Below, piece after piece: positions 38,418-40,746 of a DNA stretch of 64,000 nt (the first letter of the stretch is position 1; each line of letters opens with the position of its first letter). Source of the stretch: Christensenellaceae bacterium (GTDB lineage: Bacteria > Bacillota > Clostridia > Christensenellales > UBA1242); contig JAISKJ010000003.1 of the NCBI GenBank assembly GCA_031260975.1, positions 723,109 to 787,108 of the forward strand, read 5' to 3'. The notes below the pieces were generated by a model, which saw nothing but the letters and a program-made list of their open reading frames with translations, did not search any database and was not told where the DNA came from. A program made the position numbers and the translations under genes.

Positions 38418-38897
38418 TTATGCACGTATACCTATAATTTTAAGTCTGATAGTAATATTATTTTCCGGTAACGTAACTTCAATAATATCGCCCTCTTTTT
38501 TGCCGAGCAATGCCTGCCCCACCGGACTTTCATTTGATATAAGTCCGCCGGCAGGGTCACTCTCGGTGCTGCCCACAATTCTGTATTCAAATGTGTCGTT
38601 ATAATCTAAATCTTTAACCTTAACAAAACAACCTGCTGTTACCTTGTCGGTCTTAACATTTTTTTCGTTGATGACTTTTGCCACTCTGAGTTTTTCTTCA
38701 ATTTCGGCAATCTCTGCCTCAATTTTTCCTTGAGCCTCCTTTGCTGCGTCATATTCACTATTTTCGCTCAAGTCTCCAAAGTCCCTGGCAATTCCTATTT
38801 GTTTTGCCACCTCTCCTCTTGCAGTGCCCTTCAGATACTCCAATCTTTCTTGCAGCTGCGTATAACCATCCTTGGTCAAATATACTTCTTTTGCCAT
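38418..38897 (-). CDS. greA: Transcription elongation factor GreA
   Basis: 159 aa. GreA rescues backtracked RNA polymerase by stimulating transcript cleavage. The N-terminal coiled coil carries the catalytic tip DFGDLSENSEYD (about residues 40-51). The C-terminal FKBP-like domain has SPVGQALLGKKEGD. Full length. The ribosome site is AGGAGG with 8-nt spacing. It is transcribed from a consensus promoter through a structured leader of about 150 nt (38898-39046), so attenuation or RNA-level control is likely. Confidence 0.96.
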   Translation of the reverse strand: MAKEVYLTKDGYTQLQERLEYLKGTARGEVAKQIGIARDFGDLSENSEYDAAKEAQGKIEAEIAEIEEKLRVAKVINEKNVKTDKVTAGCFVKVKDLDYNDTFEYRIVGSTESDPAGGLISNESPVGQALLGKKEGDIIEVTLPENNITIRLKIIGIRA

Positions 38898-38934: not shown

Positions 38935-39045
38935 ATAATTAAAGAAACCTCAAAGGCTCTCCTAAAAAAATAATGTGCGGTCTTGCTGACTACACATAAT
39001 CAAGTCTCGGGAGATGCCACAAACTTTGTGCCCGTCTTTAATTAT
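38935..39045 (-). promoter_or_regulatory. Structured 5' leader of greA (riboswitch or attenuator candidate)
   Basis: Read on the minus strand, the mRNA begins at a perfect 11-bp closing stem ATAATTAAAGA/TCTTTAATTAT (39035-39045 and 38935-38945). Inside are a CACAA/TTGTG hairpin, a second stem GGC(A)TCTCC/GGAGAGCC, and a weak ATGTG/CACAT hairpin followed by TTATTTTTTT that could act as a terminator. The family is not recognised. Alternative pairing of the GGAGAG strand would suit an attenuator. Confidence 0.6.
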
Positions 39046-39052
39046 ATGCAAT

Positions 39053-39081
39053 ATTATATACTTATTCTGCATCAATGTCAA
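39053..39081 (-). promoter_or_regulatory. Consensus promoter of greA
   Basis: Minus strand: TTGACA (39076-39081), 17-nt spacer, TATAAT (39053-39058). The predicted start (about 39046) is 1 nt from the closing stem of the leader. Confidence 0.85.
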
Positions 39082-39292: not shown

Positions 39293-39550
39293 ATGCGCAT
39301 CTGGGCAAAAATTATGCTCAATCAAAAGATAAAGAAAGATACTATGCTTGAAGTTGCAGGTGATTATGACCCTGACAAATTTCAGGCCTATCTTGAGGCT
39401 ATTGCCTACAAACTGCATATCGGCACACCTATAATTTTGACCAAGCACCTCAATCATTTTCTGGAGTTTAACATCACAAGCTTTGGTCAGAGCGATTTTG
39501 CAGAGGTTATAGATTTTGACCAGCTTGTTATAGAAAGTGCTTCAAAATAA
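39293..39550 (+). CDS. Small hypothetical protein
   Basis: 85 aa, with AAAGGCGGTGAC before the ATG. An N-terminal beta strand (MRIWAKIML) with a DYDPDKFQAYLEAIAYKLHI helix follows, and it ends with an acidic FDQLVIESASK segment. Soluble, no Cys. I do not recognise the family. It has its own promoter and is divergent from greA. The following gap (39551-39786) holds a large hairpin structure. Confidence 0.65.
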   Translation: MRIWAKIMLNQKIKKDTMLEVAGDYDPDKFQAYLEAIAYKLHIGTPIILTKHLNHFLEFNITSFGQSDFAEVIDFDQLVIESASK

Positions 39551-39663
39551 GTTCTGCGGCCTTGCTTTCATTCATAAAACCATTTAAAAAAACTTTATTA
39601 CTTTTATTTTCACAAAAGGGTCGCAGGGTTTTTAATATTAACCCATTAGTTATAGACAATTAG

Positions 39664-39788
39664 AAACGGTGTAGGCGCATTATATGGGGTTAGCAGGCGA
39701 CAAGCACACGAAGAGAGTGTATAAGAAATACATGACCAAGTGGAATTGACGCACGCAGACCCTATATGGCGATGCATACACCGTTTTT
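39664..39788 (+). ncRNA. Long imperfect hairpin, candidate structured RNA
   Basis: AAACGGTGTA (39664-39673) pairs with TACACCGTTT (10 bp), continuing inward through GCAT/ATGC, TATA..GGG/CCCTATA and a broken GCG..CAA..CAC / GTG..TTGACGC stem. Small terminal hairpins are ACAC/GTGT and GTAT/ATAC. The right end reads CCGTTTTTAT on the plus strand, a possible terminator U-run. The structure overlaps the pfkA stop codon. No clear promoter was found. It could be an RNA gene, or a MITE-like inverted repeat. Confidence 0.4.
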
Positions 39789-40746
39789 ATGTGTTAAGTT
39801 TTTCAAACAACCGTAGCAACGCCTCATCAAAGTTGGTCTTGCTGTGGTTGGCTGTTTTCATATCAACATCAATAATTTTGTTGTCTTTTACGCCCACTGC
39901 CCTGTTAAACTCGCCCTTTTCAATGAGCTCCATCGCTCGCACAGCAAACTGCATGGCAAGCAGACGGTCTTTGGGAGAAGGTGATCCGCCCCGTTGAATG
40001 TATCCAAGAACATTGGCCTTAGTTTCTTTTTTGGTGTGAAATTCAATTTCGGCAGCAAGCTTAAAAATATCATAAAGGTGCTCACTCACAATCACCAGCG
40101 GGCTTGTAATTCCAAGAGATATGGCCTTTTTAACCCGTGCCACAATCTCCTCTTCACTGAGCGGATGCTCGTTGGTGGCAACAACCTCGCACGCGCAGGT
40201 GGAGGCCGAAAAAAGCGCAATTGAACCGCAAAATCTGCCCATAACCTCTACCACGCATGCCCTGTCAAGCGACGACATCGTTTGACTTATGCTTTCAATA
40301 GCATTCACCGCCACATTAACTGCGCTGTCAAACCCAAGAGCATTATCGGTATAATATAAGTCATTGTCAACCGTGGCAGGAATTGCCACCGTTTTAATTC
40401 CTTCATCATTAAGAGCGGTCAGTCCTCTAAACGACCCGTCGCCCCCTATCACAATCAGCACATCAATCTTGTGCTTTTTAATATTTTCAACTGAAGCCTT
40501 AAGACCTGCCACAGTGGTAAACTTACGGCTTCGTGACGACTTCAAAACCGTTCCTCCGACATGACTGACATTTCTGAATATCGCATAATCAATACGGCTG
40601 AACTCATCATCAATAAGTCCTTGAAATCCGTGGCTCACACCCCAAAACTCAATATTTTTATTAAAACTTGCTATTTTTGCAAGTACATTTATGCAGGTAT
40701 TCATACCCTGACTGTCCCCACCGCTGGTCAAAACAGCTATTCTCAT
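39787..40746 (-). CDS. pfkA: ATP-dependent 6-phosphofructokinase
   Basis: 319 aa from ATG 40746 (GAGGTGAG upstream; a longer in-frame start at 40902 would add 52 unrelated residues). It phosphorylates fructose 6-phosphate, the committed step of glycolysis. GGDGS at 101-105 has Gly104, the ATP-type residue (PPi enzymes have Asp). The catalytic segment PATVDND carries Asp127, though most PfkA enzymes read PGTIDND. The active-site EVMGRFCG follows. It is downstream of dnaE, a pairing common in clostridia, with a 303-nt gap that contains a nested inverted repeat. Confidence 0.93.
   Translation of the reverse strand: MRIAVLTSGGDSQGMNTCINVLAKIASFNKNIEFWGVSHGFQGLIDDEFSRIDYAIFRNVSHVGGTVLKSSRSRKFTTVAGLKASVENIKKHKIDVLIVIGGDGSFRGLTALNDEGIKTVAIPATVDNDLYYTDNALGFDSAVNVAVNAIESISQTMSSLDRACVVEVMGRFCGSIALFSASTCACEVVATNEHPLSEEEIVARVKKAISLGITSPLVIVSEHLYDIFKLAAEIEFHTKKETKANVLGYIQRGGSPSPKDRLLAMQFAVRAMELIEKGEFNRAVGVKDNKIIDVDMKTANHSKTNFDEALLRLFEKLNT

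Follow-up and report, generated by a model that had tools for sequence, protein, structure and literature searches.

A probable transcription attenuator in the greA leader of a small-genome clostridium and its recurrence in the family

Upstream of the gene for the transcription elongation factor GreA, a promoter followed by a premature terminator recurs in the family of small-genome clostridia to which the host of this DNA belongs. This is supported by sequence comparison: of the 52 family greA leaders that could be scored, 32 have the layout, compared with 33 of 386 control genes (Fisher p 2e-17), in line with the attenuation proposed in an earlier note. In the window (the whole stretch of 64,000 nucleotides that was analysed), the greA leader very probably works as a transcription attenuator. 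The overall explanation that we favour, with reasonable confidence, is an attenuator in which the share of transcripts that stop is most likely set by polymerase factors, including GreA. Attenuation of greA leaders is already known, so that the novelty is modest and lies in a new family example: we extend greA attenuation, with a quantitative control, to a family of small-genome clostridia, and add that the greA promoters of this family are unusually near consensus.

The greA leader in the window

The greA gene (38897-38418, minus strand) encodes a protein of 159 aa matching the NCBIfam profiles NF001263 (181 bits, cut-off 145) and TIGR01462 (175.5, cut-off 139), and its Shine-Dalgarno sequence AGGAGG (38911-38906, minus strand) stands 8 nt ahead of the ATG at 38897, so that both gene and site are as previously read. 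The acidic pair D42/E45 of the protein aligns with D41/E44 of Escherichia coli GreA; the role of D41 is described in PMC6829880, where E44 is named too.

A sigma-A type promoter, TTGACA-N17-TATAAT, occupies positions 39081-39053 of the minus strand and matches the consensus at 12 of 12 positions. Its spacing predicts an RNA start at about 39046-39047, ~1 nt from a closing stem, as the earlier note had stated. The exact pattern occurs at 33 sites in the 1.19-Mb genome and the same pattern read backwards at only 2, and we therefore regard the promoter of the greA leader as a real signal. Promoters of perfect consensus are common in the host's small genome (G000). Across the family, greA promoters are unusually close to consensus, with 12/12 matches in 25 of 52 greA leaders versus 5 of 386 control genes.

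The leader transcribed from ~39047 was confirmed to be structured, with a predicted fold of -38.3 kcal/mol against -29.2 (sd 3.4) for shuffled sequences (z -2.67; equalled by 1 of 200 shuffles). The closing stem, formed by a perfect 12-bp inverted repeat (39046-39035 / 38945-38934, ~1 nt from the expected RNA start), is real, but longer than the 11 bp originally counted. Its 5′ arm (UAUAAUUAAAGA; 39046-39035, minus strand) is paired in the minimum free energy (MFE) structure of the leader, and its 3′ arm (UCUUUAAUUAUA; 38945-38934, minus strand) would, if the leader is an attenuator, be transcribed only in read-through RNA. A helix of at least 12 bp at the 5′ end arose in 47 of 5000 dinucleotide shuffles of the leader.

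The T-rich, attenuator-like segment noticed before turned out to be the tail of a terminator-like hairpin, AUGUGUaGUCagcaaGACcGCACAU (38997-38973, minus strand; -8.7 kcal/mol), composed as AUGUGU-a-GUC-agcaa-GAC-c-GCACAU and directly followed on its 3′ side by the U-tract UAUUUUUUU (38972-38964, minus strand). The hairpin lies 49 nt after the expected RNA start and 75 nt before the ATG, which places this leader among the longer ones of the family. Since the adjoining upstream ORF (39293-39550) is encoded on the other strand, there is no same-strand gene directly upstream that the hairpin could terminate; on the same strand as greA, behind its own promoter and less than 300 nt from the greA start, it is a putative premature terminator of the kind considered by Naville and Gautheret (PMC2965389). 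Taken alone, the hairpin is only mildly unusual (55 of 1000 leader shuffles equally strong), and it is the comparison with relatives that gives it weight. The simple terminator rule of the promoter scanner did not flag it.

Additional pairing possibilities were observed towards the start codon. A Shine-Dalgarno-like copy, GGAGAGCC (38962-38955, minus strand), sits directly 3′ of the U-tract and resembles the true AGGAGGGC before the ATG; the leader strand GGCAUCUCC can pair with this first copy or with GAGAUG at the start codon. Likewise, UGGCAUCUC (39019-39011) possibly pairs with GAGAUGGCA at the greA start codon, with one mismatch.

Promoter and terminator in the greA leaders of relatives

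Of 99 genomes, among them that of the window, 94 yielded a greA gene, and we took up to 20 kb around the greA of each relative. The relatives listed comprise no other species of the host's genus. A single promoter and terminator detector was run on greA and on the remaining genes called in these stretches. The 94 loci were reduced to 72 by dropping six without a mechanical greA call (L213, L214, L219, L222, L226, and L228, all outside the family) and 16 with an upstream gap of <80 nt (6 from the family, 10 from the order). As controls we used mechanical ORF calls instead of annotated genes, without those at contig edges, those of <100 aa, and those with <80 nt upstream. The gene caller drops the 85-aa ORF upstream of greA for its length, and the window was consequently entered in the table of relatives as 'same, gap 889'.

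The layout was also enriched when only genes with a divergent neighbour were considered (12 of 23 family greA versus 13 of 175 controls, p 6e-7), a subset in which no terminator of an upstream gene can interfere, and when genes were matched for promoter (≥10/12) and leader length (30/48 versus 10/58, p 2e-6). The contrast between greA and controls persisted at stricter hairpin settings, and shuffled greA leaders displayed the layout in 10% of cases. Restricting the comparison to 12/12 promoters gave 17/25 versus 1/5 (p 0.07), with a very small control. No promoter-then-terminator layout was detected in the other 20 of the 52 family leaders. In the rest of the order, it was present in 8 of 20 greA leaders versus 18 of 215 controls, and in neither of the two greA leaders with a divergent neighbour. 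A terminator without the promoter condition separated the sets less well in the family (36/52 versus 170/386) and made no difference in the rest of the order (9/20 versus 91/215), a likely reason being that the 3′ terminator of an upstream gene falls within many of the control regions. A set of 80 named loci, mixing Bacillota and other phyla and lacking matched controls, had the layout in 20 of the 66 with ≥80 nt upstream.

In the 32 positive family leaders, the median distance is 11 nt from the expected RNA start to the hairpin and 32.5 nt from the end of the hairpin to the ATG; most of the relatives' terminators begin within ~20 nt of the expected start. Three of the five nearest leaders examined (L061, L003, and L004) keep a hairpin with a T-run while the letters of the stem differ, with energies of -9.5 kcal/mol in L061, at 71% GreA identity, and -6.9 in both L003 and L004. 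The nearest member of the surveyed family set (G036/L176, the same as L002) has a weak hairpin of -3.7 kcal/mol and no detected layout, and L062, the second-nearest overall, has no hairpin. Little or no sequence similarity links the window leader to the five nearest ones (23 to 406 of 500 shuffles scored as high), whereas L003 and L004 have clearly similar leaders (0 of 500). A DNA search of the 99 related genomes with the leader returned short, chance-like matches and no full-length relative.

Family leaders are on the whole more folded than their shuffles (mean z -2.2, n=42; 25 of 42 at z -2 or lower). However, when we looked for a 5′ closing stem in 18 further family leaders that have a promoter and measure ≥90 nt, none had one (lowest value, 14 of 100 shuffles), which rules it out as a conserved feature. 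The position of the terminator is kept in the family, but its sequence, the closing stem, and the antiterminator discussed below are not, which narrows the mechanism. The earlier note had named relatives without conserved structure as evidence against its reading; this is indeed the situation for the large fold, but the terminator survives.

Proposed mechanism and alternative explanations

These features of the leader are consistent with a bare terminator close behind a strong promoter. RNA polymerase would start often at the near-perfect promoter, and a share of the transcripts would halt at the intrinsic terminator, ~75 nt from the start, and end up as a short leader RNA of some 75-85 nt, while the others would read through into greA. 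The share that stops would most likely depend on RNA polymerase and the factors acting on it, GreA itself raising termination as it does for E. coli GraL, so that the GreA level would be held constant. In the read-through RNA, the 12-bp stem would close over the RNA's own 5′ end and could stabilise the mRNA. We infer both that termination takes place in the cell and that GreA is the signal: an autoregulatory element sensing elongation, one of the two options previously put forward, is possible and is the mechanism that we favour by analogy with E. coli, although we hold GreA-dependent feedback on this leader only tentatively. More speculatively, and with somewhat less confidence, the near-perfect promoters of the family and the weak terminators immediately behind them might form a ligand-free sensor of the elongation state of the polymerase, in which GreA activity sets the stop/go ratio and function preserves the terminator even as its sequence changes freely; the GraL loop could then be a convergent or an ancient version of the same homeostatic device.

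The other option, a riboswitch, fared less well. Rfam models gave no match in the window at gathering score, and the leader had none even at E values up to 5, so that a riboswitch of a known Rfam class is not supported. As a conditional attenuator of this or a similar type, the leader would use the strand GACggGCACA (39036-39027, minus strand), which nearly repeats the terminator 3′ arm and lies upstream of it, to pair with the terminator 5′ arm, and a ligand, a protein, or the ribosome would choose the fold. In the window this is not without appeal: the duplex (-8.0 kcal/mol) was equalled in 24 of 1000 shuffles, the pairing is present in the MFE structure of the nascent RNA at the stage where the 3′ arm has yet to be transcribed (-12.8 kcal/mol), in competition with the terminator state (-17.3), and, according to PMC2965389, Naville and Gautheret modelled an antiterminator in each greA/rnk cluster. 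However, among the 19 leaders with enough upstream room, that is, after removal of those with <12 nt between expected start and hairpin, the pairing was supported in one, the window itself, which speaks against the antiterminator as a general mechanism. Moreover, the hairpin is preceded by ≤11 nt in about half of the family attenuators, the nearest relatives share little or no leader sequence with the window, and, with a median room of 11 nt in the 32 family leaders and no full-length leader relative in the 99 genomes, no conserved aptamer was found upstream of the terminator. Because the closing stem is specific to the window, the antiterminator is confined to one leader in 19, and the hairpin follows the start so closely, with most relatives' terminators at ~20 nt or less, a riboswitch seems unlikely as a general explanation, and we consider a conditional attenuator unlikely also in the window. 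The short spacing between start and hairpin and the lack of a conserved antiterminator argue for a signal borne by the polymerase rather than for a ligand-binding RNA.

Two further readings were weighed. The leader might be constitutive and serve mRNA stability and translation, the 12-bp stem locking the 5′ end against 5′-end-dependent decay and the hairpin with its T-run being incidental. The stem does begin at the expected 5′ end, is rare in shuffles, and belongs to a leader that folds better than expected, but it is missing from all 18 other family leaders of sufficient length whereas the terminator does recur, and we judge this quite unlikely. Alternatively, the helices might be fortuitous, in an intergenic region that is AT-rich and has a good promoter; the hairpin alone arises in 5.5% of shuffles and the AT-rich stem in ~1%. 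Chance of this kind does not predict that the layout should recur before greA when compared with matched control genes, and it is in our view very unlikely.

Relation to known greA leaders

The best-known counterpart is GraL of E. coli (PMC6829880; Potrykus et al. 2010 cited therein), with which the window shares a promoter, a short leader with an intrinsic terminator, a long post-terminator stretch, and then greA, as well as a GreA with the acidic pair. As a positive control, our detector found the GraL terminator of E. coli K-12 (-18.6 kcal/mol, 102 nt before the ATG), and the likeness in layout drawn in the earlier note therefore holds, as does its remark that there is no obvious sequence relation (local score of 18, reached by 106 of 500 shuffles). 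The two leaders differ in that the E. coli hairpin is stronger (-18.6 versus -8.7 kcal/mol), that E. coli has two overlapping promoters according to PMC6829880 and the window one perfect promoter, and that the 12-bp closing stem was noted only in the window. Autoregulation has been observed in E. coli, whereas in the window leader it is proposed by analogy. As reported in PMC6829880, GreA raises GraL and lowers greA; this needs catalytically active GreA, the D41A mutant failing to repress, and in cells without GreA, greA transcription is up ~3.5-fold and GraL down ~4-fold. The feedback is described there as acting via the leader rather than the promoter, and as seen in vivo but not reproduced in vitro, with an unidentified factor suspected. 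The leaders of this family would allow GreA-dependent termination to be examined directly in bacteria other than E. coli.

In bacilli and Clostridia, greA attenuators had already been reported from the analysis of premature terminators by Naville and Gautheret (2010), in which, according to PMC2965389, the greA/rnk family ranks seventh among attenuated families. Those leaders and ours share a premature intrinsic terminator upstream of greA. The antiterminator, modelled there per cluster, is here possible in the window and unsupported across the family, and the coupling to near-consensus promoters is an addition of this work. The rimP-leader treated in PMC2965389 is distinct: it precedes another gene, has a conserved stem sequence, and is not homologous. 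The word greA does not occur as a whole word in the main text of two ncRNA surveys (PMC8632094, PMC11109978), and our literature search, whose coverage mostly excluded subscription journals and therefore does not prove absence, found no study of the greA leaders of this family.

Upstream neighbourhood

The next ORF upstream of greA (39293-39550, plus strand; 85 aa) is divergent and had no NCBIfam match. By eye, the upstream regions of six relatives (L002, L003, L004, L015, L020, and L024) contain a similar reversed start, MIRIWAQ-like, and a small conserved gene may therefore lie divergent to greA in several relatives.

Between this ORF and the 3′ end of a phosphofructokinase gene, we observed a near-perfect rod of ~130 nt ending in TTTTT (39655-39795, plus strand). 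It had no Rfam match at gathering score, and a search of the host's own genome with the 6S model found nothing. The rod is single copy in this genome, and its sole other DNA match in the 99 genomes falls within a coding ORF and is chance-like. Its predicted fold is strong, with an MFE of -58.7 and a z of -7.9 (0 of 200 shuffles as good).
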